Shown piece after piece: positions 1,803 through 52,039 of a stretch of 64,000 bases of DNA. A program made the position numbers and the translations under genes. The DNA is from Treponema sp. (GTDB lineage: Bacteria > Spirochaetota > Spirochaetia > Treponematales > Treponemataceae). Below the pieces are notes generated by a model. It was not told where the DNA came from, did no database searches, and saw nothing but the letters and a program-made list of their open reading frames with translations. Location: the NCBI GenBank assembly GCA_016287815.1, contig JAEEWW010000002.1:1-64000 (forward strand), given 5' to 3'. The stretch's first letter is position 1, and every line of letters starts with the position of its first letter.

Positions 1803-1831
1803 TTGAAAATCAGAATAATCTTATGTAAACT
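1803..1831 (+). promoter_or_regulatory. Sigma70-type promoter, leaderless configuration, for response regulator
   Basis: TTGAAA (1803-1808), 17-base spacer, TAAACT (1826-1831). Only 7 bases separate the -10 from the ATG at 1839, so the predicted transcript start coincides with the start codon. The in-frame TTG at 1803 is part of the -35 box and is unlikely to be the start codon. Confidence 0.65.
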
Positions 1832-1838
1832 AAGAAGC

Positions 1839-2534
1839 ATGAGAATATTACTTGTAGAAGATGAAGAACGCCTTTCGCAGGCTCTGGTAGAAATTTTTAA
1901 AGAAAATAAGTTTGTTATTGATGCCGTCTACAATGGAACAGACGGACTTGATGCAGCCCGTACTGGTATTTATGATTTAGTCATTCTTGATATCATGCTT
2001 CCCAAGATGGACGGTATTACAGTTCTTCGTACTTTGCGTGATGAAAAAAATGCAGTTCCGGTTTTATTGCTTACTGCAAAAGAAGAAATTTCAGATAAGG
2101 TTGAAGGACTTGACAGTGGTGCTGATGACTACATGACAAAGCCTTTTTCTACGGAAGAACTGCTTGCTCGTGTAAGGGCACTTACAAGAAGAAGGGGAGA
2201 AGTACGGGATGATAATCTTACTGTCGGCGACCTTTCCCTTAACCGTAAGAACTGCGAACTTGTTTCTAAAGAAACTGGTCAGGTTTTAAAACTTTCTTTA
2301 AAAGAATATCAGATACTTGAACTTTTGTTCCGTCACCCTCATGAAGTAATTACCAAGGAAGACATTATTGACCGTATCTGGGGCGATAAAAGCACAGCAG
2401 AATACAATAATGTTGAAGTTTATATTTCATTTATCCGTAAAAAAATGGAATTCCTTAAGGTAAAGACTGTTATCAGAACGGCAAGAGGAATCGGCTATTC
2501 TCTTGAAGAAAAAGAAACAGGGGCTGTCCTTTAA
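1839..2534 (+). CDS. OmpR-family response regulator
   Basis: A 231-residue DNA-binding response regulator. An N-terminal receiver (about 1-120) has the acidic pair in LLVEDEE, the phosphoacceptor Asp in VILDIMLPKMDG, a Thr in LLLTAK and the Lys of TKPF. A C-terminal winged helix (about 135-228) ends in the typical RTARGIGYSL wing. Start 1839 gives the canonical MRILLVEDE N-terminus. The partner kinase follows 36 bases downstream, so the two form a standard two-component operon. The signal and target genes are not evident. Confidence 0.92.
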   Translation: MRILLVEDEERLSQALVEIFKENKFVIDAVYNGTDGLDAARTGIYDLVILDIMLPKMDGITVLRTLRDEKNAVPVLLLTAKEEISDKVEGLDSGADDYMTKPFSTEELLARVRALTRRRGEVRDDNLTVGDLSLNRKNCELVSKETGQVLKLSLKEYQILELLFRHPHEVITKEDIIDRIWGDKSTAEYNNVEVYISFIRKKMEFLKVKTVIRTARGIGYSLEEKETGAVL

Positions 2535-2570
2535 GAATCTGCTTTGGTTGATTTATATTAGTTGGTTTAT

Positions 2571-3929
2571 ATGCGAAGAATAAAAATCAGTTCGTTTGCA
2601 AAAATCAGGCTCAGAATTATTTTCGTTACAATGCTGATTCATGCTACGATTTTTATCGGTCTGTTTTCAGTAATAAGAATTTCAAGCGAAGTAGCAAATA
2701 ACGAATGTTCTTTTAACTATATAGACAGCATTATAGAAAACCACGGGAATCCCGTATTTAACTTTTCATCAACTACGGATTTTAAAGAGGCCTATCCTAA
2801 TCTACCGTTTACTCCGCTTTTTCAGAATGTTTATCCTTATTCGCTAAAAGCGACGAAGCTATATTTTTCAGAAGGAATGTCATTAAGAAAATTCTGTTCC
2901 GTAAAGGTAAAATTTGACGGCGAAAATTTAAGGATTTTATCAACTTACAGCAAGTCTATTTCAGAAGACACGATACAAGATGTTACTCAAAACATTTTTA
3001 AAAAAGTTATTATTGGGGAACGACAGGGAAATTACAGAAGGTTTTTATGGAAATGTAAGGCTGTAGACAAAAACGGCACATACCTTCTTGTTTTTTTGGA
3101 TAATTCAATATTTTTTGACTATCTTCAAGCCTTACGGCAGATAAGAAGACATGTTCTGTTTATGGGACAGTTCTTTTCATTTTTATTTTCTTTTATCCTT
3201 TCTTCGTGGGCAATCCACATGTTTAAAATAGAATTCAACAGGCAGAAGCGTTTTCTTTCAGATGCAGGGCATGAATTAAAAACTCCGGTTTCTGTAATAA
3301 GTGCAAATGTTGATGTTCTTCTTTCTTCATATCCCGGAAATAAATGGCTTGGCTATATCCAGACAGAAACGGAACGTATGGCAGAGCTGACAAAAAAACT
3401 GCTTTATCTTGCCCGCTCCGATGCAAATGAAAACAAGTTTTTGATGCGTTCTTTTAATGTTTGTTCTTCTATTATGGAAGTTGTGCTTCCGTTTGAAAGC
3501 GTTGTCTTTGAACAGGGAAAAATCCTTGAAATGGATTTACCGCCGGAAGGTATTATGGTCTATGCCGATGAAGCTTCCGTAAAACAGGTTGCAGTAATTT
3601 TTCTGGATAACGCCCTTAAAAATACGGAAGAAAATGCACATATAAAAATTTCTGTTTCCTGCCAGAAAAACAAATGCCTTTTAAAAGTTTACAATACCGG
3701 CCTTGGAATAAAACCTGAAGACCTTAAAAAAATATTCCAGCGGTTTTATCGTTCAGACACTTCACGGAACCGCCTTACAGGCGGTTCCGGTCTTGGTCTT
3801 GCCATTGCCTCTTCTATTGCTGAAGCCCACAACACATCTGTTTATGCCCAGAGCGAATACGGAAAATATGCCGAATTTGTCTTTGAAATTCCTCTTGATA
3901 CAAAAAAAATTAAAAAAGCTATTGGCTAA
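2571..3929 (+). CDS. Two-component sensor histidine kinase
   Basis: A 452-residue membrane kinase. One membrane segment lies near residues 13-33 and a second near 195-220, bracketing an extracytoplasmic sensor of about 160 residues with no recognised family. The H box is HELKTPVSV, followed by an N box around FLDNALKNTEEN, then a G1-like LGIKPEDL, the F box FQRFYR, and G2 GGSGLGLAIA. I prefer the ATG at 2571 (MRRIKIS) over the TTG at 2562. It should phosphorylate the regulator encoded immediately upstream. The ligand is unknown. Confidence 0.9.
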   Translation: MRRIKISSFAKIRLRIIFVTMLIHATIFIGLFSVIRISSEVANNECSFNYIDSIIENHGNPVFNFSSTTDFKEAYPNLPFTPLFQNVYPYSLKATKLYFSEGMSLRKFCSVKVKFDGENLRILSTYSKSISEDTIQDVTQNIFKKVIIGERQGNYRRFLWKCKAVDKNGTYLLVFLDNSIFFDYLQALRQIRRHVLFMGQFFSFLFSFILSSWAIHMFKIEFNRQKRFLSDAGHELKTPVSVISANVDVLLSSYPGNKWLGYIQTETERMAELTKKLLYLARSDANENKFLMRSFNVCSSIMEVVLPFESVVFEQGKILEMDLPPEGIMVYADEASVKQVAVIFLDNALKNTEENAHIKISVSCQKNKCLLKVYNTGLGIKPEDLKKIFQRFYRSDTSRNRLTGGSGLGLAIASSIAEAHNTSVYAQSEYGKYAEFVFEIPLDTKKIKKAIG

Positions 3930-3951
3930 GTATGTTTATTTAGGCTAAACT
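3922..3951 (+). promoter_or_regulatory. Promoter for dapL, leaderless configuration
   Basis: TTGGCT (3922-3927), 18-base spacer, TAAACT (3946-3951), then only 6 bases (TTGCCT) to the ATG at 3958. The -35 overlaps the stop codon of the kinase gene. There is no Shine-Dalgarno upstream of the ATG. Confidence 0.55.
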
Positions 3952-3957
3952 TTGCCT

Positions 3958-5187
3958 ATGATAAATAGAAACAAAGGATTTTCAAACTTAACGGCCGGAT
4001 ATCTTTTTCCGGAAATTGCAAGAAGAAGAAGGGAATATGCAGAAAAGCATCCTGGTTCTTCTATAATAAGTCTTGGTATTGGTAATACTACAGAACCTCT
4101 TTCACCGCATATTGCAAAAGCTATGTCAGATTATGCATTGGCTCTTGCAACACCTGAAGGTTATTCAGGTTACGGCGATGAACAGGGACTAAAAGCCCTT
4201 CGTGAAAAAATTGCTCAGGTTTTGTACGCAGGTAAAGTAGACGCTTCCGAAGTATTTATTTCTGACGGTGCAAAATGCGATATTGCCCGCATCCAGACTT
4301 TGTTTGGTCGCGATGTAAAAGTTGCCGTACAGGATCCGGCATATCCGGTATACGTTGACGGTTCGGTTGTAGTTGGTGCTGCCGGCCAAATGAAAGCCGA
4401 TGGTTCCGGTTATGAAGGTATTGTTTATATGCCTTGTGTACCGGAAAATAATTTCTTCCCGGATTTGTCTGTTGTACCTGAAAATTCAATTATATATTTC
4501 TGCTCTCCAAATAATCCTACAGGTGCTGCATCAACAAAAGAAGAACTTACACGCCTTGTAGAATATGCACGCAAGCACGGATGTATAATCATCTTTGATG
4601 CTGCTTACATGGAATTTATACGTAATCCTGAACTTCCAAAAACAATATTTGAAATTCCTGGCGCAAAAGAATGTGCAATTGAAATTAATTCTTTCTCTAA
4701 ACCTGCCGGATTTACAGGTGTTCGTCTTGGCTGGTCAATTGTTCCAAATGAATTGAAATTTGCTGACGGTTCAAGCGTAAATAAAGACTGGAACCGTGTA
4801 ATGACAACTTTGTTCAACGGAGCTTCAAACATTGCTCAGGCAGGCGGGCTTGCCGCTCTTGACGAAGAAGGCCTTAAAGAAATGAAAGCCATCATCGATT
4901 ACTATCTTGAAAACGTAAAAACGATGGGTAAAGTTCTTAATGGTCAGAAATTTAAAGATGCCGGCGTAAAGGTTTACAGCACAGGAAATTCACCGTATCT
5001 TTGGGTTTATTTCCCTGGATATAAGAGCTGGGATATTTTCGATAAAATCCTGGAAGAATGTAATGTTGTTGTAACTCCGGGGTCCGGATTCGGTCCGGCA
5101 GGAGAAGGTTTTGTACGTTTCAGTGCATTTGGACATCATAAAGATGTAGAAGAAGCCTGTAAGCGTTTTGAAAATTTAAAATTATAG
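3958..5187 (+). CDS. dapL: LL-diaminopimelate aminotransferase
   Basis: A 409-residue fold-type I PLP aminotransferase. DapL converts tetrahydrodipicolinate directly to LL-diaminopimelate with glutamate as amino donor, feeding lysine and cell-wall precursor synthesis. Family signatures are strong: AGYLFPEIARRR at the N-terminus, LGIGNTTEPL, SDGAKCD, AVQDPAYPVYVD, CSPNNPTGA, and the PLP lysine in SFSKPAGFTGVR (about K248). Length matches the family. I start at ATG 3958 because the upstream TTG at 3952 lies between the -10 box and the ATG. The gene stands alone behind its own promoter; no other dap gene is in the window. Confidence 0.9.
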   Translation: MINRNKGFSNLTAGYLFPEIARRRREYAEKHPGSSIISLGIGNTTEPLSPHIAKAMSDYALALATPEGYSGYGDEQGLKALREKIAQVLYAGKVDASEVFISDGAKCDIARIQTLFGRDVKVAVQDPAYPVYVDGSVVVGAAGQMKADGSGYEGIVYMPCVPENNFFPDLSVVPENSIIYFCSPNNPTGAASTKEELTRLVEYARKHGCIIIFDAAYMEFIRNPELPKTIFEIPGAKECAIEINSFSKPAGFTGVRLGWSIVPNELKFADGSSVNKDWNRVMTTLFNGASNIAQAGGLAALDEEGLKEMKAIIDYYLENVKTMGKVLNGQKFKDAGVKVYSTGNSPYLWVYFPGYKSWDIFDKILEECNVVVTPGSGFGPAGEGFVRFSAFGHHKDVEEACKRFENLKL

Positions 5188-6765: not shown

Positions 6766-6793
6766 TTGACATCCATTTTGTTTCAGTTAAAAT
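6766..6793 (+). promoter_or_regulatory. Promoter of chemotaxis operon, leaderless configuration
   Basis: A perfect TTGACA (6766-6771), 16-base spacer and TAAAAT (6788-6793). Seven bases then precede the cheA ATG at 6801. No Shine-Dalgarno is present, so cheA is predicted to be translated from a leaderless mRNA. Confidence 0.7.
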
Positions 6794-6800
6794 ATTAAGT

Positions 6801-9212
6801 ATGAGTGATTATTTAGATGCGAGCAATGAAGAATTGTTAAAAGACTTCTTCTCAGAAGCCAGTCAACAAGTCGAAAATCTCGAAAGCAACATTCTTGTTA
6901 TAGAAAATGACCCTGAAAACCATGAAGCAATTGATGAAATTTTCAGGGCTGCGCATACATTGAAAGGTGGCTCTGCAACTGTGGAGATGAATGAACTGTC
7001 AAGTTTCACTCATACGGTTGAAGATGTGCTTGATGAATTGCGTTCTGATCGTCTGAAAGTTACGGAGAACGTTGTAGATGTTCTTCTTTCTGCTATAGAT
7101 GTTATTAAGAGCATGCTGGAATCCCGTTCCAACGGTTCTGTTTACAGTGAAGATGTTTCTGATTTGCTGGAAAAACTTCATTCGTTTATTCCTGCAAAAG
7201 AAAAGAAAAAGTCAAAACCGCCGGTTTCCCTTGCTTCTTTTGCACAGCCGGCTCCTGCCCCGGCACCTGCTGCTCCAGCTCCTGCCGCTTCAGCTGCTCC
7301 TGCTTTAACAGAAGAAGAATACAGCGAATTAAAACGCAATTGTGGAGCGGGACAGCACTTGTGGAGTGTAACCGTTCAGTTTGATGAAAATAATCCTATG
7401 AATTCTGTAGGTGGAATTCAGGTATTTGCGGCATTAAAAGCCTGCGGAACAGTATTAAAGACAGTTCCTGATTTTGATGCGCTTTACGAAGATGAATTCT
7501 ATCCTACGGTTGTATATTATCTTGTAAGTGATTCAAATGCAGATGCATTGGAAGACGCTGCATTTCTGAGCGATGTAACATTAAGTACAGACGCTAAGGA
7601 AGTTACAGGTCCTTCTGCCGGCGGAGCCGCTCCTGCTGCTGCAAAACCTGCACCTCAGGCAGCCCCGGCACCAACACCAGCTCCTGCCCCTGTTGCTGCT
7701 GCAGCCCCGGCACCTGCCCCTGCAGCACCTGCACCACAGGCTGCTGCTCCTGCAAAACCTGCTGAGGCCGCTAAACCTGCCGCTGATAAGCCGAAGCCGG
7801 CTGCGCCTGCAAATCATGCAAATGCTGCTGGTTCAATTCTGCGTGTAGATTCAAGACGTATCGATTCACTTTTGAATCTTGTCAGCGAAACAGTTATTAC
7901 AAAGGCTGCATTCAATCAGCAGGCAAATCAGCTTACAGAACAGCAGCTTCAGTTCCAGAGCCTTGATGTTGCTTTCAAAGAAAGAATTCACCGTCTGTTT
8001 GAACAGTTGCCGCAGTATCTTGAAGAAATAAACAATGGAAAATCTATAAAAGCCATTCAGTCAGAAATTACACAGGAATTTGGAGATATTTATTCAATCT
8101 TCGATCCTTATGAAGCAGCATTTAAGAGCCTTGCCCTTAAATTCCGTTCTTCTACACAGAACCTTGGTCGCATTACAAGCGAACTTCAGGAAGGTGTAAT
8201 GAAGATTCGAATGGTTCCTATCAGTCAGATTTTCAGCCGTTTCCCTCGTGTTATCCGCGATTTGCAGCGTGATTTGAATAAAAAAATCAATCTGGAAATT
8301 GAAGGTGAAGAAACAGAACTTGATAAGTCAGTAGTTGAAGATTTGCTCGACCCGATTATGCACTGTGTACGCAATTCTGTAGACCATGGAATTGAAGCAC
8401 CAAATGTGCGTGTTGCAGCCGGTAAACCTGAAACAGGTACCGTAAAACTTAAGGCTGCCAACGAAGGTAATATGATTAATATTGATATCAGCGATGATGG
8501 TGCCGGTATTGATGTTGATAAAGTTAAGGCAAAGGCTATTCAGAACGGACTTATCCATCCTGATAAGATTCTTACTGATCAGGAAGCATATCAGCTTATT
8601 TTCCAGCCGGGCTTTTCTACGGCGGAAAAAATTACAAATGTTTCAGGCCGTGGTGTAGGTCTTGATGTTGTTAAGACAATGATAGATAAGTTGAACGGTT
8701 CCGTAACGGTTTCTTCACAGAAAGGTGTTGGAACTACGTTCTGTATCCGTTTGCCTCTTACACTTGCAATTATTCAGGGCTTGCTTGTACGTGTTGGTAA
8801 AGAAGTTTACTCAATTCCGATTGTTTCGGTTATTGAAAGCCGCCGCGTACACTTGAGCGAAATTAATACAATTGATAATTACGAAGTTCTTAACGTTCGT
8901 AATGAAGTTATCAGTGTACTTAGATTAAGCCGGTTGTTTAATATTCCGGTAAATGAATCCGGCGAATACTGTTACATAGTTATTGTTGGATCTCAGAATA
9001 AAAAAATTGGTATCATGGTTGATGCTTTGATTGGTGAAGAAGATGTTGTAATTAAACCTCTTCGTGACCAGTTTACCAATTCACCTGGAATTGCTGGTGC
9101 TTCAATTTTGGGAGACGGTTCAGTTTCTCTTATTATTGATGTATCACAGTTGTTGGATTTGGGTGTGCGCCAGGAAATTGATGCACAACAGGCTGTACCG
9201 GAAGGGGTGTAA
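6801..9212 (+). CDS. cheA: Chemotaxis histidine kinase CheA
   Basis: An 803-residue kinase that receives receptor signals and phosphorylates CheY. Domains in order: P1 Hpt with the phospho-His in AAHTLKGGS (H52); an Ala/Pro linker (about 150-170); a P2-like domain (about 172-272); a long Ala/Pro linker (about 273-340); P3 dimerisation; P4 ATPase with the N box near DLLDPIMHCVRNSVDHG and a GRGVGLDVV G box; and P5 CheW-like at the C-terminus. It is first of four chemotaxis genes with spacings of 9, 21 and 16 bases. The two Ala/Pro linkers are long and may make the array partner flexible. Confidence 0.96.
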   Translation: MSDYLDASNEELLKDFFSEASQQVENLESNILVIENDPENHEAIDEIFRAAHTLKGGSATVEMNELSSFTHTVEDVLDELRSDRLKVTENVVDVLLSAIDVIKSMLESRSNGSVYSEDVSDLLEKLHSFIPAKEKKKSKPPVSLASFAQPAPAPAPAAPAPAASAAPALTEEEYSELKRNCGAGQHLWSVTVQFDENNPMNSVGGIQVFAALKACGTVLKTVPDFDALYEDEFYPTVVYYLVSDSNADALEDAAFLSDVTLSTDAKEVTGPSAGGAAPAAAKPAPQAAPAPTPAPAPVAAAAPAPAPAAPAPQAAAPAKPAEAAKPAADKPKPAAPANHANAAGSILRVDSRRIDSLLNLVSETVITKAAFNQQANQLTEQQLQFQSLDVAFKERIHRLFEQLPQYLEEINNGKSIKAIQSEITQEFGDIYSIFDPYEAAFKSLALKFRSSTQNLGRITSELQEGVMKIRMVPISQIFSRFPRVIRDLQRDLNKKINLEIEGEETELDKSVVEDLLDPIMHCVRNSVDHGIEAPNVRVAAGKPETGTVKLKAANEGNMINIDISDDGAGIDVDKVKAKAIQNGLIHPDKILTDQEAYQLIFQPGFSTAEKITNVSGRGVGLDVVKTMIDKLNGSVTVSSQKGVGTTFCIRLPLTLAIIQGLLVRVGKEVYSIPIVSVIESRRVHLSEINTIDNYEVLNVRNEVISVLRLSRLFNIPVNESGEYCYIVIVGSQNKKIGIMVDALIGEEDVVIKPLRDQFTNSPGIAGASILGDGSVSLIIDVSQLLDLGVRQEIDAQQAVPEGV

Positions 9213-10661: not shown

Positions 10662-10682
10662 AAAATCTTATAAGGAGAAAAT

Positions 10683-11165
10683 ATGCGAGTAGAGTATATC
10701 AACCCATTTGTAGAAATTTCTTACAGAGTCTTAAAAGAGGTTCTTGACGGCTCTGAAGTAAAACGTGGGAATTTGTATTTGAAGTCTACCGCAATGCCTG
10801 TTATGGGTGTTGCTGCTTTGGTAGGTCTTGCAGGAGATGTTGAAGGTCGTGTATTATTTGACATGACTCTTGACACTGCGCTTAAGATTGCCTCTAAAAT
10901 GAATGGAGAAGATCTGCCGCAGTTCGATGATCTGGCAAAAGCTACTATTAGTGAGTTGGCAAATATGATAACAGCACAGGCTGTTACAAAATTGCATGAG
11001 TTGGGCTTTAAGTTCGACTTGACTCCACCAGCACTTTTTGCAGGTGAAAAAATGGAAATTGCTGCTTTAGGAAATACTTCTGAAAATATTGAAGCTCTTA
11101 TTGTGCCTCTTATTACAGAGTATGGAAAAGTAGAAATAAATGTTGCTATTCGGGAACGAGTATAG
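10683..11165 (+). CDS. cheX: CheY-P phosphatase CheX
   Basis: A 160-residue protein of the CheC/CheX family, which removes phosphate from CheY-P. The catalytic Glu-x-x-Asn pattern is visible in ISELANMITAQA. It begins MRVEYINPF and has an AAGGAG Shine-Dalgarno. CheX is the spirochete CheY-P phosphatase, and its place between the CheW/R fusion and CheY agrees with this. It is one of four genes transcribed together from the cheA promoter. Confidence 0.93.
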   Translation: MRVEYINPFVEISYRVLKEVLDGSEVKRGNLYLKSTAMPVMGVAALVGLAGDVEGRVLFDMTLDTALKIASKMNGEDLPQFDDLAKATISELANMITAQAVTKLHELGFKFDLTPPALFAGEKMEIAALGNTSENIEALIVPLITEYGKVEINVAIRERV

Positions 11166-11738: not shown

Positions 11739-12470
11739 TTAATAAATTATCAGTTTGTATCCTGCTGCTGAGCTTAATATCTCTATATTGTATTTTTTTA
11801 TTTTCTTTAAATAATAGCGTAACCTTGAAACATAAACACAGACGCTTCTGTCAGCAGCAACCCTGTCATGCATAAGAAGAACATCTTTTAATTCGTTACG
11901 ACTTATGTATGTATTGTATCTGTTTATAAATTTTATAAACAGATTAAAGATTGTTGGAGGCATTTTTACTTTTTTTCGTAATTCATAGATGTTTATGTTG
12001 TAGGGCAGAACAGGAGTTTTTTCAACCTGGCTGCATATATCTGCTTCGCCAAAAGGAAGTGGTTCCTGAATTAAAGGAATGTATGGTTTTATAGCGGGAG
12101 ATTCAACTGCATTTTGAATTGCATAAAGCAGTTCTTTTAATTCTGGCGAAATTTCCAGTTCTGTAAAATGTCTTGCCAGTTGAAAAAGCCAGTAAGTTAC
12201 CCTTTCTCCGTCGGACGGGTACGGGTCATTGTAAAAAATGAGGGGTACAATTACATTTAGTTCCCGCATGTATCTGTAGATATTCAGCATGTCATGCTGG
12301 AACATTGTGTAATCCATTACGAATAAATCCGGTAGTGTGACGTTGTTGTGTAAAATATGGAAGAAAAACTTTTGGCCATAGTGCGGTATAGCGCAAATTC
12401 CTGTCTTAGTAATTTTATCAACTATTTTTTCGCAAACGGCTATTTGTTTGGTAAAAAAATAAACTGTCAT
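11739..12470 (-). CDS. Atypical response regulator with pseudo-receiver and winged helix
   Basis: A 243-residue protein. The C-terminal part (about 145-243) matches an OmpR-type winged helix: RSVCVYVSRLRYYLKK followed by an AAGYKLII wing. The N-terminal half is receiver-sized and keeps one Asp in LFVMDYTMF (D53). However, the acidic pair is absent (VYFFTKQ), and the switch Thr/Ser and the conserved Lys are not visible. It is therefore probably not phosphorylated in the usual way. It is convergent with the chemotaxis operon and has its own leaderless-type promoter. Targets are unknown. Confidence 0.7.
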   Translation of the reverse strand: MTVYFFTKQIAVCEKIVDKITKTGICAIPHYGQKFFFHILHNNVTLPDLFVMDYTMFQHDMLNIYRYMRELNVIVPLIFYNDPYPSDGERVTYWLFQLARHFTELEISPELKELLYAIQNAVESPAIKPYIPLIQEPLPFGEADICSQVEKTPVLPYNINIYELRKKVKMPPTIFNLFIKFINRYNTYISRNELKDVLLMHDRVAADRSVCVYVSRLRYYLKKIKKYNIEILSSAAGYKLIIY

Positions 12471-12476
12471 ACTAGT

Positions 12477-12505
12477 ATTCTAAGGTTAAATTTAGTAAAA
12501 ATCAA
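12477..12505 (-). promoter_or_regulatory. Promoter of atypical regulator, leaderless configuration
   Basis: On the minus strand TTGATT (12505-12500), 17-base spacer, TAGAAT (12482-12477), then 6 bases (ACTAGT) to the ATG at 12470. No Shine-Dalgarno is present. Confidence 0.6.
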
Positions 12506-12587: not shown

Positions 12588-13583
12588 CTATAGTGTGAAC
12601 GGCAATGTTTCTGAAATTGAGGTTTTACCGGTTAAAAGACAGATTAGTCTGTCTAAACCGATTGAAGCGCTGGCACATTCAGGATAATTGCTATAGATTT
12701 TCCAGTAGCCTGCATCAACCGGATGGTTTATCTTTGATTTTCTGGCCTTTAGCTTTGACTGATTTTCAAAATAAAGGCGTACATTGTTTGCTGACGTTTC
12801 TTCAGATCTGAAGTCTGCAATTTTAATTCCGCCACAGAAAAGCTGACAACGCTCTTTTAATGCAACCGGGCGTTCTGGCGTTGGTACAATATTTTTTGAT
12901 AAATCAGAAATCTGCTGTGGGAAATCATAAATTACTGTTGCACCTTCATGCTGAAGTTTCGGAACAATGTGTTGGGAGAATATATATTCAAATAATTCTA
13001 CCCATTCCCAGGTAGCAAATGGCTTGTCCATTGATTCTGTAAGACCTAAATTTCTTGTGTGGTAAGCAAGACTTCCTGTATCCTGAGCGTCGGAAAGCTT
13101 AAAACCGGCATATTTTTCAAACGCGTTATCCATTGTAATGTATTTAAAAGGAGGTTTCACTGCTGCAAGAAAAGGTTCCGGTTTTAACTGGGAAATTAAA
13201 TTTGTTAATAATTCTTCAACTATTTTTGTAGCATGAAGATAATTATAGCCCATTAAATAGAATTGCAGCATTGAAAATTCAGGGTTGTGCATTTTAGTCA
13301 TTGCTTCCATATTTCTGAAGCATTTTGAAATTTGAAAAATATTGCATTTGTTCTGGGCGACAATCCTTTTCATAAAAAAATCCTGGTTCGGTGCCAGAAA
13401 TAAAGAGCGGCTAATTCCGCTCCATTGGTCTACATAGTCAGTTTTAAAAACTTCAAAATTGCAGTCCGGTATGAGTGTTGAAGACAAAACAGGAGTTTCT
13501 ACTTCAAGAAAACTTTTTTTTATAAAAAAATCACGTGTGCGCTGAATTATTGAAGCGCGCATTTTTAACATTTCCAAATTCAT
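12588..13583 (-). CDS. epmA: EpmA/GenX-type lysyl-tRNA synthetase paralogue
   Basis: A 331-residue class II synthetase core without the anticodon-binding domain. It resembles EpmA (PoxA/GenX), which attaches beta-lysine to a conserved Lys of elongation factor P. Motif 1 region FLEVETPVLSS, motif 2 region ISKCFRNMEAMTKMHNPEF and motif 3 GLDRLICLLTG are all visible. Length suits EpmA rather than a full LysRS of about 500 residues. No EF-P gene or lysine 2,3-aminomutase (EpmB) is in the window, so the substrate is inferred. It shares a 45-bp promoter region with the divergent TtcA-like gene. Confidence 0.8.
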   Translation of the reverse strand: MNLEMLKMRASIIQRTRDFFIKKSFLEVETPVLSSTLIPDCNFEVFKTDYVDQWSGISRSLFLAPNQDFFMKRIVAQNKCNIFQISKCFRNMEAMTKMHNPEFSMLQFYLMGYNYLHATKIVEELLTNLISQLKPEPFLAAVKPPFKYITMDNAFEKYAGFKLSDAQDTGSLAYHTRNLGLTESMDKPFATWEWVELFEYIFSQHIVPKLQHEGATVIYDFPQQISDLSKNIVPTPERPVALKERCQLFCGGIKIADFRSEETSANNVRLYFENQSKLKARKSKINHPVDAGYWKIYSNYPECASASIGLDRLICLLTGKTSISETLPFTL

Positions 13584-13628
13584 GCTTTTATTATAGCAAA
13601 TAGAATTGAAAAAGTGTATAGTTTTGTT
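13584..13628. promoter_or_regulatory. Overlapping divergent promoters, both leaderless
   Basis: The whole 45-bp gap holds two -10 boxes: TATAAT on the minus strand (13595-13590), 6 bases before the epmA ATG, and TATAGT on the plus strand (13617-13622), 6 bases before the ATG at 13629. The -35 regions must overlap the opposite promoter and are weak (TACACT for epmA). Neither gene has a Shine-Dalgarno. Confidence 0.55.
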
Positions 13629-14336
13629 ATGGGGCAGCCGCTGATTTTTCGCCTTATTGATAAGGCTGTTTATGAATATAATTTGATAGAAAACGGGGAT
13701 AAAATTTTAATTGGTGCTTCAGGCGGAAAAGATTCTACTGCTTTAATTGAATATTTTGCAAACCGCGTGCGCCGCCCAAGTGAAAATTTTACTTTTTCGG
13801 CTTTTCATGTTTCTTCAGAAATTACCAAGCCCCTTAATATTGAACTTGCAGAAATTTTTAAATCCTGGAATGTTGAAGTAATTGAAAAATATGTTGATGT
13901 GTTAGGCAGAATAAAAAAAGGCCATAAAATGAACTGCTGGTGGTGTTCTACGCAGCGGAGAACTGAACTTTTAGAGTATGCAATAAAAAATGGCTATAAT
14001 AAGATTGCCCTTGGGCATCACCTTGATGATATTCTTGAAACTTTTCTTATGAATGCAGTTGAACGCGGTGAATTTTCAACAATGCCTGTAAAACTTCAGT
14101 ATGAAAAATATCCGGTACAGATAATCAGACCTTTGTGCTATGTGCCGGTAAATTTAATAAAATCACATGTGGAAGAAGCAGGTTATAAAAGCGTAACGTG
14201 TACATGTAATTTTCAGGATAATTCAGCAAGAAAACTTGCCAGAGAAAAGTTGAATTTTTTAACTGATTTTATGGATGAAAAAAAACAGAGGCTTTTTGCG
14301 TCTTTGAAAAATATACAGATGCAGTATCTGCCTTAA
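13629..14336 (+). CDS. TtcA-family PP-loop tRNA thiolation enzyme
   Basis: A 235-residue adenylating enzyme with the PP-loop GASGGKDST near residue 30, a CWWCSTQRR motif (C103 and C106) and a later CTC motif (about 190-192), the positions where TtcA proteins hold cysteines for a 4Fe-4S cluster. GHHLDDILETF is also typical. TtcA makes 2-thiocytidine at tRNA position 32. The second Cys motif is CxC-like, so a related substrate is possible. The GTG at 13614 lies upstream of the -10 box; ATG 13629 is the better start. Confidence 0.8.
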   Translation: MGQPLIFRLIDKAVYEYNLIENGDKILIGASGGKDSTALIEYFANRVRRPSENFTFSAFHVSSEITKPLNIELAEIFKSWNVEVIEKYVDVLGRIKKGHKMNCWWCSTQRRTELLEYAIKNGYNKIALGHHLDDILETFLMNAVERGEFSTMPVKLQYEKYPVQIIRPLCYVPVNLIKSHVEEAGYKSVTCTCNFQDNSARKLAREKLNFLTDFMDEKKQRLFASLKNIQMQYLP

Positions 14337-14374: not shown

Positions 14375-15211
14375 TTAAAACGGATTTGAAGGGCGTTTGC
14401 TGAATTTATAAGTCATTTTTGCTCCGAAATATCTGCTTACAAAATGGCTTATGAATGCACTGAATTTCCATTTTGCAGCCATTATGGCAATGTGTTTTCC
14501 TTTTTTTGTTTTTTTAAGGCAGTGTGCAACAACTTTTTGTGCAGAAAGCCCGTGAAGAACTTCTTTTCTGGCTCCGTTTGAAGCAACGTTTGCAAATTCT
14601 GTGCTGACAGAGCCTGGACATAAGGCCATGACTTTTATGCCTTTATTTTCAACTTCGGCGGCAAGTGCAAGCGTAAAACTTAATACATAGGCTTTTGTAG
14701 CGGCATAAACTGCAAAATTGCCAAGCGGCATAAAAGCTGCAAGGCTTGCTACATTTATAATGATTGAATCTTTTTTCAAGTACGGAAGTGAAAATCCACA
14801 TATTCCGGTCAGGGAAGTGCAGTTCAGGTCAATCATTTCAAGCTGGCGTTCGGTTTTTGTATTTTCAAATGTTCCGTAAGTTCCAAAGCCTGCATTGTTG
14901 ATTAAGCAATCTATTTTAATCTGTTCGTTTTCTTTATTCTCTGCAGAATCGGATTTGATTTCATTTTCAAGCAGTGTTTTAAAAAGAAGGGCACCTTGTG
15001 TTCCGCATAAATCTATTTGAACAGGTTTTACTGCTATTGAAGAATTTTCAATTCTTTTTGTTTTCTGTAATTCATGCTTTAATTCTTCAAGCTTGTCTTT
15101 TCTGCGGGCAAGAAGCCAGAGTTCATCGCTTTTGCAGCTCGGGTAAATCTGTCTGGCAAATTCCATGCCCATGCCGGAACTAGCACCGGTAATTATGGTC
15201 AGTGTTTTCAT
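14375..15211 (-). CDS. Short-chain dehydrogenase/reductase
   Basis: A 278-residue Rossmann oxidoreductase of the classical SDR family. TGASSGMG binds the cofactor at the N-terminus, NNAG is present as INNAGFGTYG, a Ser lies in NVASLAA, and the catalytic Tyr/Lys are in YAATKAY. An ARRKDKLEEL segment after the second strand suggests NADP(H) preference. The substrate is not evident. It is convergent with the TtcA-like gene and preceded by a -10 box 6 bases from the ATG. Confidence 0.85.
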   Translation of the reverse strand: MKTLTIITGASSGMGMEFARQIYPSCKSDELWLLARRKDKLEELKHELQKTKRIENSSIAVKPVQIDLCGTQGALLFKTLLENEIKSDSAENKENEQIKIDCLINNAGFGTYGTFENTKTERQLEMIDLNCTSLTGICGFSLPYLKKDSIIINVASLAAFMPLGNFAVYAATKAYVLSFTLALAAEVENKGIKVMALCPGSVSTEFANVASNGARKEVLHGLSAQKVVAHCLKKTKKGKHIAIMAAKWKFSAFISHFVSRYFGAKMTYKFSKRPSNPF

Positions 15212-15217
15212 GGTTTT

Positions 15218-15223
15218 AATATA
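15218..15223 (-). promoter_or_regulatory. -10 box of SDR gene, leaderless configuration
   Basis: TATATT on the minus strand (15223-15218) ends 6 bases (AAAACC) before the ATG at 15211. The -35 region is GC-rich and poor (TTTCCG at 17 bases). No Shine-Dalgarno is present. Confidence 0.45.
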
Positions 15224-15382: not shown

Positions 15383-15411
15383 TTGTACTTTTTTTTTACA
15401 TGCCATATACT
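15383..15411 (+). promoter_or_regulatory. Promoter of tat TRAP operon, leaderless configuration
   Basis: TTGTAC (15383-15388), 17-base spacer, TATACT (15406-15411), then 6 bases (ATAACA) to the ATG at 15418. No Shine-Dalgarno. This argues for 15418 over the in-frame start at 15376, which lies upstream of the promoter. Confidence 0.65.
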
Positions 15412-15417
15412 ATAACA

Positions 15418-16392
15418 ATGAAAAAAATCGTTTATTTTCTTCTTATAACATTTGTACTCAGTTTAAATTCATGTTCATCTATTCAAAAAATGGGAACAAA
15501 CGCTGTCTCTGATATGATGTCCGGCTATGACAAAAAAGGACGCTTGATTGAAAAAAAGCAGGGGACTGCTGACCCTATGCTTGCCGTTATGGGCGAAACG
15601 GATACAATTCTTATAGGTGATTTTCTGCCGGTTACATTAAAGATGTGTGAAATTCTTCAGGCCGGTAATCCTGAACATCAGGGAATGGCAATTATGTGCG
15701 GACAGCTTAATGTTATGTATGCAAATGCATATATTCAAAGTCCTGCGGATGAAATTCCTGTCAGTGAATTTGATAAAAAAGATTCTGAATACCGCAGAGC
15801 CTATGCACATTATTTAAAAGGCAGTGAACAGATTTTTGCAGTCCTTGAAAAAAAATATCCGGGAATAAATGATATTCTTGTTTCTGCTGATGAAGATAAA
15901 ATCAGCACAGTTGTAAGCAAGTTAAAAAAGAACGATGTAAATGCCCTTTATTGGGCGGTTGCAGGAAGACTTGGGGCTTTTTCTTTGGATCCATTGAATC
16001 CAGATTTGATTACATCCCTTAGCGCATGTGTTGCTCTTTTGGAAAAAGCCTGTGAACTTGATGCTGAATATTCATCAGGTGCAATCTGGTCACTGCTGTT
16101 TACTTTTTATGTTTCAGCACCTGCTGATTTCTGCGGCAATATGGAGCGCGGGCTTGAATGTTACAGAATGGCACAGAAAGTTTCTGGCGGAAAACAGGCC
16201 GGAAATTATGTTGCCTATGCAGAAAGTTATTGTATTCCGCAGAATGATGAAGAAGGTTTTGTAAAAGCCTTGAATGATGCTCTTGCAATAAATCCTGATG
16301 AAGATCCTTCTTCAAGACTTATGACGGTGATTTATCAAAAGAAGGCAAGAAGGCTTCTTGCAGCCAAAGAAGATTATTTTCTTGAATGGTAA
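15418..16392 (+). CDS. tatT: TRAP-associated lipoprotein TatT
   Basis: A 324-residue lipoprotein with a lipobox ending LNSC (C19). It matches the TatT component known from Treponema, a TPR-like helical periplasmic protein that forms a trimer and docks the solute-binding protein TatP. The sequence is helical with repeated Ala/Leu patterns (for example CVALLEKACELD) consistent with degenerate TPRs. It is the first gene of tatT-tatP-tatQM. The ligand of the treponemal system is thought to be hydrophobic or organic acid-like; this window does not settle it. Confidence 0.85.
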   Translation: MKKIVYFLLITFVLSLNSCSSIQKMGTNAVSDMMSGYDKKGRLIEKKQGTADPMLAVMGETDTILIGDFLPVTLKMCEILQAGNPEHQGMAIMCGQLNVMYANAYIQSPADEIPVSEFDKKDSEYRRAYAHYLKGSEQIFAVLEKKYPGINDILVSADEDKISTVVSKLKKNDVNALYWAVAGRLGAFSLDPLNPDLITSLSACVALLEKACELDAEYSSGAIWSLLFTFYVSAPADFCGNMERGLECYRMAQKVSGGKQAGNYVAYAESYCIPQNDEEGFVKALNDALAINPDEDPSSRLMTVIYQKKARRLLAAKEDYFLEW

Positions 16393-21687: not shown

Positions 21688-21695
21688 TCTACTAT

Positions 21696-33692: not shown

Positions 33693-33720
33693 TTGACAAA
33701 ATTTCGGAAAGTGTTAAAAT
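33693..33720 (+). promoter_or_regulatory. Lipoprotein promoter, near-leaderless
   Basis: Perfect TTGACA (33693-33698), 16-base spacer, TAAAAT (33715-33720), 9 bases to the ATG at 33730. No Shine-Dalgarno. Confidence 0.65.
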
Positions 33721-33729
33721 CGCTGTCCT

Positions 33730-34983
33730 ATGTTAAAAAAGATTTTAATAATAAATATAAGTATAATTACGATTTTATTAAGTTCATGTCGTTTTGTAAT
33801 TGGAAATCCTGACGAAGGCGAAACAGCTGCCGGGGTTAATCTTTCTGGCGGATCTGAAAAGGCAGAGACATATAATACATCTACGGATATTTCTGTTTCT
33901 GGTGGTACAGGTTCTTCTGAAAACACTGGCAAAACAGAAATCTCTGGGGGGGCGAGCGAAGAATCATCTGCTTCCGGTAATTCAGAAAATTCTGGGGAAA
34001 TACAAGGCGCTGGCGACTCTCAAGGTTCTGGTGAATCACAGGAAGCAGGCAGCTCAGAAAATTCTGGTGAAGGTTCTGCAGGTTTTGAACCTTCCAGAGG
34101 TTCTTCAAGATCTTCTGAAAAATCGGCAGAAGATACCACAGCTGAAACTTCATCTGATGTAACAGGTAATGCTGAGGTAGCTTCAGGTTCAGAACAGGTT
34201 TCTTCTGAAGTTTCTGATTCTTCGGCTCAGAGCGGTCAGACTGCTGACAATAATGCAGGAAACATTTCAGACGGTGCTAACCAGTCGGTAAATGAATCGT
34301 CGGCTGAACAGACTGCTGATGAAAGTTCGGCTGAAGAAACTGCCCGTGCTGCAGCCGAGGCCGCACAGAAAGCTGCTGAAGAAGAAGCAGAACGTGCTGC
34401 AGCTGAAGCTGCACAGAAAGCTGCTGAAGAAGAAGCTAAGCAGTATGCTGAACAGGCAAGGGAAGCTGCTGAAAAAGCTTCTAATGCATCAAACGCAAAA
34501 GAAGCATCTGAATATGCAAATCAGGCTGCAGAAGCCAGCCGCAAAGCCAAAGAGGCCGCAGAAAAAGCCGGAACTGATTCTGCAAAAGAAGCCGCAGAAA
34601 CTGCTTCTGATTACAAGAATAATTCTGAGTCTGCAGCATTAGACAAGCAGGCTTCTGAACAGGATGACAAACACGGAATTCCTGATGAAATTATTTATAT
34701 TCAGCCGGAACCTGAAAAATATAAGTTCAAATTAGGAAGCTGGCAATACTCTGTAACTTTTAAGGAAAATGATGTTGTAGATGTTGATGTCCGTGAATCT
34801 TTTACAGGATTAAACTATAAGAAAACGTACTTTAAAAAAGGCGGACGCTGCTATAAGCGGGTTAGCATAGGTTTTATACATTATGAAATTCATTCTATTG
34901 TTTTGGATTGCCTTGTAGACGGCGACCTTCAGCCATTCTTTAAGTCAATAGTTCAGGATAATAAAATTCAGCAGACATTCTGA
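33730..34983 (+). CDS. Low-complexity lipoprotein with Ala/Glu coiled coil
   Basis: A 417-residue lipoprotein (lipobox LLSSC, C20). Residues about 25-205 are rich in Ser, Gly, Glu and Asn and look disordered. Residues about 208-305 form an Ala/Glu/Lys coiled coil that includes a near-exact 16-residue duplication (RAAAEAAQKAAEEEA twice). A compact C-terminal domain of about 100 residues (EPEKYKFKLGSWQYSV onward) looks folded. No family is recognised. A surface or periplasmic spacer role is inference only. It has its own promoter and terminator. Confidence 0.75.
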   Translation: MLKKILIINISIITILLSSCRFVIGNPDEGETAAGVNLSGGSEKAETYNTSTDISVSGGTGSSENTGKTEISGGASEESSASGNSENSGEIQGAGDSQGSGESQEAGSSENSGEGSAGFEPSRGSSRSSEKSAEDTTAETSSDVTGNAEVASGSEQVSSEVSDSSAQSGQTADNNAGNISDGANQSVNESSAEQTADESSAEETARAAAEAAQKAAEEEAERAAAEAAQKAAEEEAKQYAEQAREAAEKASNASNAKEASEYANQAAEASRKAKEAAEKAGTDSAKEAAETASDYKNNSESAALDKQASEQDDKHGIPDEIIYIQPEPEKYKFKLGSWQYSVTFKENDVVDVDVRESFTGLNYKKTYFKKGGRCYKRVSIGFIHYEIHSIVLDCLVDGDLQPFFKSIVQDNKIQQTF

Positions 34984-47765: not shown

Positions 47766-48212
47766 TTATTCTGCTGAACCTTCGGCTGTGCGCTCTGCAG
47801 CACCCTTTGTAAATTCAGAGATTTTTTCTGCTGCAGAACTGCCTGCTTTTTTAATTTTTTTACCGGCACTTTTCATGCTTTTCTTAAATTTGCCGTCTTC
47901 TTTTTTTTCTGATTTTTTATCAGCTTCTTCGGAATCTTTTTCATCACTCGCTTTTTCTGATTTATCAGTTTTTTCGTTTTCGGATTTTTCGTCTGCAGAT
48001 TTTACGGATTCCTTTTTATCAGACTCCGTACTTTCTGCTTCGGTGCTGCTTTCCGAATGATCACCTTCTTTTGTGCGTTCAACAACCTGAGATGTTTTAG
48101 ACTTTATTTTAGTAAATAAACCTTCTTTTTTTTCTGCTTCTTCTTTTGCAAAGCATAAAGAAAGGGCAGCAAATAATAACATTGCAATAGAAATAATATT
48201 TTTCGTTTTCAT
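47766..48212 (-). CDS. Exported Lys/Glu/Ser-rich low-complexity protein
   Basis: A 148-residue protein with a signal peptide (MKTKNIISIAMLLFAAL, cut likely after CFA). The mature part is almost wholly Lys, Glu, Ser and Asp in short repeats (KSENEKTDKSEKASDEKD), with a more hydrophobic amphipathic C-terminal segment (AGSSAAEKISEFTKGAAE). It is probably disordered and periplasmic. No family is recognised. It has its own -10 box 6 bases from the ATG. The 22-bp tandem array lies behind its promoter. Confidence 0.7.
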   Translation of the reverse strand: MKTKNIISIAMLLFAALSLCFAKEEAEKKEGLFTKIKSKTSQVVERTKEGDHSESSTEAESTESDKKESVKSADEKSENEKTDKSEKASDEKDSEEADKKSEKKEDGKFKKSMKSAGKKIKKAGSSAAEKISEFTKGAAERTAEGSAE

Positions 48213-48218
48213 GCTGAT

Positions 48219-48224
48219 AGTATA
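48219..48224 (-). promoter_or_regulatory. -10 box of Lys/Glu-rich gene, leaderless configuration
   Basis: TATACT on the minus strand (48224-48219) ends 6 bases (ATCAGC) before the ATG at 48212. The -35 (TAGATT at 17 bases) is weak. No Shine-Dalgarno. Confidence 0.5.
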
Positions 48225-48521: not shown

Positions 48522-48623
48522 TTTGTGTACTGGAATAAAAGCCAGTGTCTATGAAAGTACACAAATGGTATATCGTACTTCTTTCAGATTGCATTGCATG
48601 GAATCTTCCTTTTCTGATAAAAT
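48522..48623 (+). promoter_or_regulatory. Inverted repeat and MFS gene promoter, near-leaderless
   Basis: TTTGTGTACT (48522-48531) is perfectly inverted as AGTACACAAA (48556-48565). TTGCAT (48594-48599), 18-base spacer and TAAAAT (48618-48623) then form a promoter ending 9 bases before the ATG at 48633. No Shine-Dalgarno. Together with the array this fills the 420-bp gap before the MFS gene. Confidence 0.55.
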
Positions 48624-48632
48624 CGCCTTAAT

Positions 48633-49823
48633 ATGAATAAACTATCATCTATTTTTAAAGAATCATCAAAGTACAAAATGCTTTTTCTTTCTATCTTTAT
48701 GATGGCAATCGGTTATGGGCTTCATAAAGGAATTCTGGACAACTATCTTGCTGAAGTTGTTAAAATGAACGGCATGGATCGTGGCATTACAGAGTTTTTC
48801 CGCGAAATACCGGGCTTTCTTTTAATTTTTATTCTTGCCATTCTATATAAGTTTTCCGCAGAAAACATTTATAAAATCGGCGGAGTTTTTATGGTTATAG
48901 GAATGGCTTTACTGGCTTTTATTGCTCCTGTAAAAACGCTCATTATCCTTTCAATCTGTATCTATTCTACCGGCGAACACATTCAGCTTGGAATGAAAAA
49001 CACGCTTACGCTGGAATATTCAAAGGAAGGTTCAGGCGGAAGAGGACTCGGCTGGCAAAATGCAATTCACCAGATTGGAACTTTAATCGGATACATTGCA
49101 ATAATAATTGTCTTTTCTGCAATAACTGCTAACAAGCCGTACAAGAGCGTTTATATTGTTTCCACAGTATTTATGATTTTTGCCCTGATTTTTGGTCTGC
49201 ATCTTACAGCTAACAGTAAAACGGACAAATCTAAAAACCGCTTTTATTTTAGAAAGAAATTTACAAAGTATTACATGCTCGAAGTTTTCTACGGGGCACG
49301 CAAACAGGTTTTCTTTACCTTTGGACCTTACGTACTTATTCTGTTTTACGGCGCAAAAGCTTCTGTTATAAGCCTTCTTTTTGCAGTTTCTGCAATTTCG
49401 TGCTTTTTGATTTCTCCGCTGATTGGAAAAATCATTGATAAAATAGGCTACAAAACCGTAATGATAAGTGACACATTGATTTTAGTTATAGTCTGCTTTT
49501 TCTACGGCTTTGCGCATCATATTTTTCCAAAAAACATTGCGTTTATCGTCTGCTGCGTAAACTACGTACTTGATTCAATTATTTCGCTTGCAGCAATGGC
49601 TTCCAATGTTTACGTTCAGGATATTTCAGACAGCGCAGAAGAAATCCGTGCTACAATTTCTACAGGAATAAGCGTTAACCATGCAATTACAATTTTGATT
49701 GCGCTTTTTGGCGGATGGATATGGCAGAGATTGGGAATTGAAACATTGTTTGTAATTTCGGCCGTTCTTGGTCTTTGCAACAGCGCTTACGCTGCTTCTA
49801 TAAAATTGCCGAAGCAAAGCTGA
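48633..49823 (+). CDS. Major facilitator superfamily transporter
   Basis: A 396-residue membrane protein with about 11-12 hydrophobic segments and the typical central break (loop NSKTDKSKNRFYFRKKF near residue 200) separating two six-helix bundles. The substrate cannot be read from sequence. An FtsH-like AAA gene follows 41 bases downstream on the same strand and may be co-transcribed. The promoter is preceded by the 22-bp tandem array and a long inverted repeat, so its expression may be specially controlled. Confidence 0.8.
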   Translation: MNKLSSIFKESSKYKMLFLSIFMMAIGYGLHKGILDNYLAEVVKMNGMDRGITEFFREIPGFLLIFILAILYKFSAENIYKIGGVFMVIGMALLAFIAPVKTLIILSICIYSTGEHIQLGMKNTLTLEYSKEGSGGRGLGWQNAIHQIGTLIGYIAIIIVFSAITANKPYKSVYIVSTVFMIFALIFGLHLTANSKTDKSKNRFYFRKKFTKYYMLEVFYGARKQVFFTFGPYVLILFYGAKASVISLLFAVSAISCFLISPLIGKIIDKIGYKTVMISDTLILVIVCFFYGFAHHIFPKNIAFIVCCVNYVLDSIISLAAMASNVYVQDISDSAEEIRATISTGISVNHAITILIALFGGWIWQRLGIETLFVISAVLGLCNSAYAASIKLPKQS

Positions 49824-49864
49824 TTTTATACTGATTTTTATAAAAAAAATACCAGAGGTGAAAA

Positions 49865-51010: not shown

Positions 51011-51018
51011 CTTTTCTG

Positions 51019-52002
51019 TCAGTTTGCGGCTTTTTTGAATTTTCCTGCAAGCTGTGAAACTATGATTGCAAAAAACATTATTGCGCAGCCTGTAATTTCG
51101 CGGGCGGAAAGAGTTTCGTGAATATAGATTGCCCCTGAAATTGCTGCAAAAACAGATTCCATGCACATCAAAAGCGAAGCAATTGTTGCTTCGCAGTATT
51201 TTTGGCCTATAACCTGCATTGTGTAGGCAAAGCCGCAGCTTAGTATACCCGAATACAAAATAGGAAAAATAGCAGAACGAATCTGTTCGATTTTTGGTTC
51301 TTCAAAAATAAACATTAAAACTGTAGAAATTATTCCGCATGTAAAAAACTGAACGCATGAAAGTTTTACTCCGTCGCAGTCTGGTGCCCAGCGTTCTATT
51401 GCTAGAATCTGAAAAGAAAAGAAAACAGCACATACCAATGCAAGAAAATCTCCTTTACCTGTGAACGAAACGGAAGATTTTTCAAAACACAAAAAATAAA
51501 GTCCGATAAACCCAAGTGCTATACAAAGCCATGTTAAAACAGGAATTCTTTTGTTCAGTATAAATAAGCCGAGAATCGGAACAAAGAACATGTACATTGC
51601 CGTTATAAAGGCAATCTTTCCTGCTGTCATTCCCGGTTCATAAAATGCAAACTGCTGAAGGTTTGTGGCGATGCACAAAAATATTCCTATTATAATTCCG
51701 TGCTTTATTGTCTTTCTGTTTTTTATACGGTTTTCCCTGCGTTCTGATTCATTCATTCTGGAAGTAAGATATCTTTCCTGAATAAAAATAAATGGCATAA
51801 GAAAAATAGAGCCTATAAGCGTTCTGCAGCCCATAAAGGTAAATGCCTGTACTGAATTGCTTCCAAGACTTTGTGAAACAAAAGAAGTACCCCAGATAAA
51901 TGCGGTTGCAAGAAGCATTATTACGCCTTTTGTCTGAGTTTTGATTTTTAGTTCTGCCTGATTTGTTGAAAATGGGCTTTGTTCTTTATCGATTTTATTC
52001 AT
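51019..52002 (-). CDS. EamA/DMT-family transporter
   Basis: A 327-residue protein with ten membrane segments in two EamA repeats, the drug/metabolite transporter pattern (ATAFIWGTSFVSQ in the first repeat, SVFAAISGAIYIHETLS in the second). Such proteins export amino acids, metabolites or drugs. The direction and substrate are unknown. Its stop is 8 bp from the convergent FtsH-like gene, and it has a good leaderless-type promoter. Confidence 0.87.
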   Translation of the reverse strand: MNKIDKEQSPFSTNQAELKIKTQTKGVIMLLATAFIWGTSFVSQSLGSNSVQAFTFMGCRTLIGSIFLMPFIFIQERYLTSRMNESERRENRIKNRKTIKHGIIIGIFLCIATNLQQFAFYEPGMTAGKIAFITAMYMFFVPILGLFILNKRIPVLTWLCIALGFIGLYFLCFEKSSVSFTGKGDFLALVCAVFFSFQILAIERWAPDCDGVKLSCVQFFTCGIISTVLMFIFEEPKIEQIRSAIFPILYSGILSCGFAYTMQVIGQKYCEATIASLLMCMESVFAAISGAIYIHETLSAREITGCAIMFFAIIVSQLAGKFKKAAN

Positions 52003-52010
52003 GTCTACGG

Positions 52011-52039
52011 ATAATAAAATCTTGCCGTAAAAAATTCAA
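52011..52039 (-). promoter_or_regulatory. EamA gene promoter, near-leaderless
   Basis: On the minus strand TTGAAT (52039-52034), 17-base spacer, TATTAT (52016-52011), 8 bases to the ATG at 52002. No Shine-Dalgarno. Confidence 0.55.

Follow-up and report, generated by a model that had tools for sequence, protein, structure and literature searches.

Where do the transcripts of a bacterial gene begin when a promoter-like hexamer stands only a few bases before its start codon? The question is raised by the first 64,000 bases of contig JAEEWW010000002.1 from a Treponema sp. genome (assembly GCA_016287815.1), a stretch referred to below as the window. An original prediction, made from the window alone, had read thirteen of its gene starts, that of cheA among them, as leaderless or near-leaderless. 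Our sequence analysis of the same genome and of its relatives supports this interpretation. About 12% of the promoter-proximal genes carry a -10 box 6–8 bases before the ATG, have no Shine-Dalgarno (SD) site and very probably give rise to leaderless mRNAs, predicted to start at the A of the ATG itself.

Hexamers before start codons in the genome sample

We studied 41 pieces of this genome, the window included (555,177 bases in all). The script for gene calling relied solely on coding statistics and on the type of start codon, and was blind to motifs in the start region. A gene was regarded as promoter-proximal if it had a divergent neighbour with a gap of more than 20 bases or a same-strand gap of at least 80 bases (n = 220), and as operon-internal if the same-strand gap was at most 40 bases (n = 108).

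A strict, near-consensus hexamer was found 6–8 bases before the start codon in 32 of the 220 promoter-proximal genes, while 300 dinucleotide shuffles of the upstream DNA yielded 5.6 +/- 2.4 such genes and never more than 13. The distances form a sharp peak, with 14, 13, 5, 4 and 3 promoter-proximal genes at 6, 7, 8, 9 and 10 bases; the background in these 220 genes is 2.1 strict hexamers per position, in a genome of 38% GC. Such a peak had been proposed as a check in the original prediction, which had also named an equal frequency before operon-internal genes as a result that would speak against it. Among the latter we observed a hexamer at 6–8 bases in just 1 of 108 (Fisher p 2e-5, odds ratio 18). 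Control ATGs gave low counts as well: 8/180 for ATGs elsewhere in these upstream regions and 5/300 for ATGs within the first 60 bases of genes. In Escherichia coli MG1655 the same script found 2/123, with a background of 1.3. The hexamer-ATG set is not due to chance or base composition.

SD motifs follow the opposite trend, as they precede 90/220 promoter-proximal and 65/108 internal genes; the 16S rRNA gene of the host is represented by a fragment only. After subtraction of the background, 26 of the 220 promoter-proximal genes (11.8%), or 6.6% of all 392 called genes, belong to the presumed leaderless class; the counts include strict hexamers only, so this share is probably a lower bound. The wide use spoken of in the original prediction amounts to about 12% of the promoter-proximal genes once the background is subtracted, and not to most of them. 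Codons 2–8 of 27 leaderless candidates are slightly richer in A than those of 380 ATG genes (0.414 vs 0.383).

Promoter character and ATG specificity

If the hexamers are -10 boxes, a -35 box may be expected at the usual spacing. As a criterion we used a match of at least 4/6 to TTGACA at a spacer of 16–18 bases. Such a box precedes 21 of the 35 genes with a strict hexamer at 6–9 bases, while five other spacer windows gave 3, 3, 3, 0 and 4 genes. When both boxes were required, 27 of 413 genes had them at 6–8 bases from the ATG, compared with 5, 1, 2 and 3 at decoy distances.

The excess concerns one codon only. In a comparison of nine codons in the same genome, both boxes preceded ATG 27 times (4, 1, 2 and 2 at decoy distances), ATT 3 times (1, 3, 3, 3), ATA 3 times (1, 3, 2, 3), ATC once (1, 2, 2, 2) and GTG twice (0, 1, 2, 0), and neither TTG nor CTG gave a single case. 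Since the excess is specific to ATG, it is not explained by a general tendency of RNA polymerase to initiate on A. Together with the coupling to a -35 box, this argues for a promoter whose transcript begins at the ATG.

Sigma-70-type promoters start their transcripts 7–9 bases past the -10 box. By this geometry, distances of 6–8 bases would put the transcript start on the ATG, and a distance of 9 would put it 1–3 bases before the ATG. As in other bacteria, such mRNAs would be translated by a ribosome that already carries fMet-tRNA and reads the 5'-terminal AUG, a route favoured by initiation factor 2 (IF2). Operon-internal genes and those with longer leaders would mostly use SD pairing, which implies two initiation modes in one genome.

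Family-library scans covered 24 of the 27 both-box genes, and cheA was identified by its orthologues only. The set includes dnaA, the DNA polymerase III alpha subunit, smpB, dut and phosphoribosylformylglycinamidine synthase, as well as an RsmE-family methylase, an XPB-type helicase, two GGDEF proteins, an MCP, an ABC ATPase, a MatE transporter and a Bmp-family substrate-binding protein.

Conservation among relatives

The promoter layout of cheA was scored in 33 loci out of 35; the two left out, L051 and L052, matched weakly, belong to other genes and did not align. It is kept in 17/17 same-genus relatives and in all four further named ones (T. parvum, Treponema sp. UBA1798, RUI140 and an uncultured Spirochaetaceae bacterium), always with a spacer of 16 and a distance of 7–8 bases. 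In these 21 relatives the -35 box reads TTGACA, TTGACT or TTGAAA, and the -10 box is near consensus. Locus L053 lies on the same contig as L024 and was not recounted as a named relative; the conservation test at decoy distances took 34 cheA loci, L053 included.

A similar picture was obtained for dnaA. Two same-genus genomes (G002 and G008) gave no match and a third (G012) a split one, hence 14 of 17 relatives were read; all 14, as well as our genome, have the layout, at 6–9 bases. Locus L287 did not extend far enough upstream, and L283 and L284 have an uncertain start. As a separate observation, TGTGGATAA-like boxes lie upstream of dnaA in loci L282 and L284–L286 of other families, mostly with SD-like sites and with no adjacent promoter.

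Other genes of the window were compared in the same way. For the response regulator starting at 1839, all five relatives with at least 50% identity share the layout (decoys 1–2/5). For TatT (15418), the N-terminus did not align in seven of 13 loci, which were left out; our genome and the five remaining relatives have the layout at 6–10 bases, with decoys at 0–1/6. At 13583, T. parvum has an identical hexamer at an identical distance, and 5/11 loci, our own included, follow the rule (decoys 1–2/11). The only relative read for 13629, T. parvum (L056), likewise has the same hexamer and distance, and the only one read for 15211, again T. parvum, has TATACT at 7 bases. For 12470, where alignments beginning after residue 10 were left out, the distance is 6 in T. 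parvum (L056) and 5 in L055. Only distant relatives were found for 48633.

Summed over nine genes, the layout is present in 56/99 loci (own included), compared with 15, 23 and 25 at decoy distances. Two of the nine, an HD-GYP protein (21696) and an aminotransferase (3958), add no excess to this total. Operon-internal genes provide a contrast: with the promoter rule at 5–10 bases, cheX gave 1/11 loci and cheW/cheR 0/31.

Spread over the order

In 146 genomes of the order we counted the pattern TTGA, 18–20 bases, TAWAAT and then ATG; these are pattern counts, in which the ATGs were not verified as gene starts. The pattern occurs 2475 times with 6–8 bases before the ATG, 960 times with 10–12 and 902 times with 14–16, while reversed-pattern controls gave 277, 314 and 273 at the same three spacings. 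The 6–8 spacing exceeds both others in 127/146 genomes: 27/28 of the genus (own included), 19/20 of other genera of the family, 41/44 of family f5 and 40/54 of families f2–f4.

With gene calls in sampled DNA of relatives, the strength varies. Four same-genus genomes pooled have a hexamer at 6–8 bases in 15/145 promoter-proximal genes against 4.8 expected, and another genome (G041) has it in 5/29. Summed over the samples of eight relatives, the both-box count is 18, with decoys of 6, 2, 1 and 5.

Starts in the window

Inside the window we curated 51 starts, in a curation that was not blind. All 13 starts named in the original prediction were borne out: each has a TAnnnT hexamer matching TATAAT at 4–6 of six positions and ending 6–9 bases before the ATG (6, 6, 6, 6, 6, 6, 6, 7, 7, 8, 8, 9 and 9), and none has a credible SD site. 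Eleven lack any anti-SD match of at least 4 bases within 20 bases; the remaining two, 48212 (AGGT) and 48633 (TGAT), have a 4-base match 13–14 bases away, overlapping the hexamer or upstream of it. The statement that most of them also have a -35 box proved too strong, as 7/13 reach at least 4/6 at 16–18 bases (1839, 3958, 6801, 12470, 21696, 33730 and 52002); the boxes of 6801 and 33730 match TTGACA at all six positions. Their description as first genes holds with a caveat for 3958, which begins 28 bases past the end of the preceding same-strand open reading frame. At four of the starts (1839, 3958, 13629 and 15418) an alternative in-frame start lies upstream.

Altogether, 15 of the 51 curated starts have a hexamer of at least 4/6 at 6–9 bases, as 490 and 60841 join the thirteen. 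None of the other 36 does, and 25 of them have an SD match of at least 4 bases; one of the 36, 39161, has a weak hexamer (TACTTT, 3/6) at 8 bases. The window is not unusual for its genome: a hexamer at 6–9 bases precedes 8/31 of its promoter-proximal genes and 27/189 of those outside.

Table 1. Promoter-like sequences adjoining start codons in the window, with one SD-led start for contrast.
ATG	Strand	Interval	Sequence (-35-spacer-hexamer)	Bases to ATG	Gene or product	Remark
490	+	477..492	TAAAAT	7		no good -35; absent from the original prediction
1839	+	1803..1841	TTGAAA-17-TAAACT	7	response regulator with Trans_reg_C domain	
3958	+	3922..3960	TTGGCT-18-TAAACT	6	class I/II aminotransferase	
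6801	+	6766..6803	TTGACA-16-TAAAAT	7	cheA	
10683	+	10672..10685	AAGGAG (SD site)	5	cheX	contrast; operon-internal
12470	-	12468..12505	TTGATT-17-TAGAAT	6	Trans_reg_C protein	
13583	-	13581..13595	TATAAT	6	class II tRNA-synthetase-like	no good -35
13629	+	13617..13631	TATAGT	6	PP-loop family	no good -35; divergent from 13583
15211	-	15209..15223	TATATT	6	short-chain dehydrogenase	
15418	+	15406..15420	TATACT	6	TAtT, TRAP transporter T-component	
21696	+	21659..21698	TTGCCT-17-TATATT	8	GAF-HD protein; HD-GYP	
33730	+	33693..33732	TTGACA-16-TAAAAT	9	417-amino-acid protein, no Pfam match	
48212	-	48210..48224	TATACT	6		no good -35
48633	+	48594..48635	TAAAAT	9	MFS transporter	weak -35 TTGCAT
52002	-	52000..52039	TTGAAT-17-TATTAT	8	EamA transporter	
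60841	-	60839..60877	TTGAAA-18-TATTAT	6	RNB-domain exoribonuclease	absent from the original prediction

Three places in the window deserve a separate remark. Just 45 bases separate the divergent starts 13583 and 13629 (13581–13631); a separate -10-like hexamer precedes either ATG by six bases, and the overlapping promoter regions of the pair would likely exclude each other. The protein without a Pfam match at 33693–34983 stands under a promoter-like sequence with perfect boxes, and no relative of it was found in the other 29 genomes searched. Finally, the start of a DEAD-box helicase (39161) and that at 2571 are preceded by -10-like hexamers at distances of 10 and 11 bases, which might give leaders of 2–5 bases.

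Evidence against and alternative explanations

Several results weigh against leaderless initiation as a general feature of these genes and genomes. The effect is uneven among relatives: in G030 the hexamer precedes 12/163 genes at 6–8 bases against about 6 expected (p 0.024), and it is scarce in G109 (0/18), G004 (1/40) and G020 (0/26, in a genome of 70% GC). The both-box count shows no excess in G027 (1, with decoys of 2, 1, 1 and 2), and G020 has no such gene. In the four pooled same-genus genomes, 4/112 internal genes also have a hexamer at 6–8 bases. All 32 hexamer genes of our genome fall among the 130 promoter-proximal genes that lack an SD motif and none among the 90 that have one, yet this mutual exclusion is partly forced, as both motifs occupy the same bases. 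A trinucleotide test on whole samples, which is diluted by coding DNA, gave a weak signal for ATG (z 2.8 in our genome, 1.7 and 1.4 in relatives).

Conservation also has its limits. The boxes of cheA are weaker in ten genomes of other families, where they lie at 7–12 bases, and one of these loci has GGAGG. The dnaA layout is absent from other families, where 4/5 readable loci have an SD-like match; the initiation mode of dnaA thus seems, from these upstream regions, to have switched inside the order. Even within the genus, 2/17 cheA loci (GAGGT) and 5/14 dnaA loci (AGGA) have an SD-like stretch that overlaps the -10 box or directly adjoins it. Conservation is unsupported for the HD-GYP gene at 21696 (5/27 loci including our own, decoys 8, 8 and 7) and for the aminotransferase at 3958, where among loci of at least 55% identity 3/12 follow the promoter rule, our own included (decoys 2, 2 and 4). 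We therefore dropped the orthologues of both genes as examples of conserved leaderless starts, their counts not exceeding those at decoy distances. The aminotransferase loci (L197–L210) comprise three with an adjacent promoter and no SD site and nine led by an SD site with no promoter, and never both; the gene is thus a candidate for having switched its initiation mode, though this is suggestive only, the count not being above decoys.

The strongest alternative accepts the promoters as real and places the transcript starts 2–6 bases before the ATG, so that very short leaders would act in a leaderless-like manner or by another non-SD route. It draws on the distances of 9–10 bases at 33730, 48633 and 39161 (at the first two, a distance of 9 permits a leader of 1–3 bases) and on the distances of 9–12 at cheA in 8/10 genomes of other families. 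On the other hand, the peak at 6–7 bases puts the first transcribed base on the ATG by the usual geometry, and the both-box count drops from 27 to 5 at 10–12 bases. We consider this alternative unlikely.

The hexamers could also be A/T-rich translation signals, S1-binding or Bacteroidetes-like, on mRNAs with normal leaders. A/T-rich non-SD signals upstream of genes are discussed for other phyla (PMC5397173, in the part of the text available). A signal of this kind would hardly explain the TTGACA-like box at 16–18 bases in 21/35 genes and its rarity at other spacings, the cheA spacer fixed at 16 in 21/21 distinct relatives, or the near absence of the hexamer before the internal genes of this genome, and we regard it as very improbable.

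We give as little credence to the idea that the start codons are misplaced and the true starts lie downstream behind SD sites. Many open reading frames do offer more than one in-frame start, but the N-termini are conserved (CheA aligns from residue 1 in 33/33 loci, the response regulator in 5/5), and 26 of the 27 both-box ATGs are the very starts called without any motif.

The picking by eye of chance hexamers in A/T-rich intergenic DNA, where TAnnnT is common at 38% GC (the background given above), has next to nothing left in its favour after the shuffles, the spacing contrast in 146 genomes and the E. coli control. Chance is excluded for the set as a whole; an individual gene, 48212 or 21696 for example, may nevertheless owe its hexamer to it, as about 6 of the 32 are expected at background.

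Implications

If about a tenth of the promoter-proximal genes, including dnaA and cheA, are leaderless, gene prediction that relies on SD sites would misplace their starts, and reporters with added SD leaders would misreport their expression. Treponemes would then be bacteria with both initiation modes, which could be compared on orthologous genes.

A bolder proposal is that treponemes have selected and conserved leaderless initiation for key control genes. The promoter-ATG distance is held throughout the genus at cheA (spacer 16, 7–8 bases) and dnaA (6–9 bases). Chemotaxis and replication might on this proposal be set by recognition of a 5'-terminal AUG and be tunable together, apart from SD-led genes, through the balance of IF2 and initiation factor 3 or through stress. 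We put it forward tentatively and consider it doubtful at present.

Comparison with known systems

In the leaderless genes of Deinococcus deserti and mycobacteria, only a few bases separate the -10 box from the start codon. Among spirochaetes, Leptospira belongs to another order than the treponemes.

A close precedent is the work of Zheng et al. (2011), who predicted leaderless (TA-led) genes for 6 out of 18 genomes of Spirochaetes, where they make up 1.8–6.9% of genes with a mean of 3.9% (PMC3160421). Those genes bear a TANNNT signal some 12 bases ahead of the start codon, were validated by shuffling and were argued to be operon-proximal. The genes described here share TANNNT above dinucleotide shuffles and operon-proximal placement; as expected of bacterial leaderless genes, they also have no SD site, a -35 box at 16–18 bases and an AUG start. 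With 6.6% of called genes, our genome falls at the upper end of their Spirochaetes range; the present study adds the coupling to a -35 box, the specificity for ATG, the decoy distances and the conservation among orthologues. The word Treponema does not occur in the main text of that paper, the genome list of which is in a supplement or web page outside this check.

In Leptospira interrogans, differential RNA sequencing placed a primary start at most 10 bases from the start codon in 430–450 genes and exactly on it in 170–184 (PMC5243855, 2017, as far as its text was available). RNA ends were measured in that spirochaete, while ours are predicted from sequence alone; no promoter motif besides sigma-54 is given there, whereas clear -35 and -10 boxes are present here. 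The same paper cites 1174 leaderless mRNAs in D. deserti, more than here. GeneMarkS-2, as described in PMC9581028, predicts leaderless transcription for 21.6% of bacterial species, and its classes likewise include leaderless and leadered genes mixed in one genome; the main text of PMC9581028 has no word beginning with Spirochaet, Treponema or Leptospira. The translation route outlined above, with a ribosome carrying fMet-tRNA, a 5'-terminal AUG and a role of IF2, follows the available part of PMC10783764.

For treponemes, few mapped transcript starts were found in the papers searched. One in T. denticola is located 14 bases upstream of TDE1716, which shows that this species has leadered sigma-70 genes (available text of PMC9481697). 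The literature searched contained no genome-wide map of transcript starts for Treponema and no description of leaderless genes in it; most subscription papers were outside its scope, as were the lists of genomes treated by Zheng et al. and by GeneMarkS-2, and these lists may hold a prediction for a Treponema genome. In the accessible text of a Borrelia transcript paper (PMC10319736) the word 'leaderless' is absent, and two T. pallidum papers proved off topic in the parts available, one merely citing GeneMarkS-2 (PMC12687308) and the other dealing with leaderless antimicrobial peptides (PMC9200625). The view that wide use in Treponema had not been described thus stands as far as no report for this genus was found, although precedents exist among spirochaetes in the available texts (PMC3160421, PMC5243855). 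Leaderless genes are a known kind; what is added here is their coupling to a -35 box, the ATG specificity, the order-wide contrast of spacings and the conservation of the layout at cheA and dnaA within the genus.

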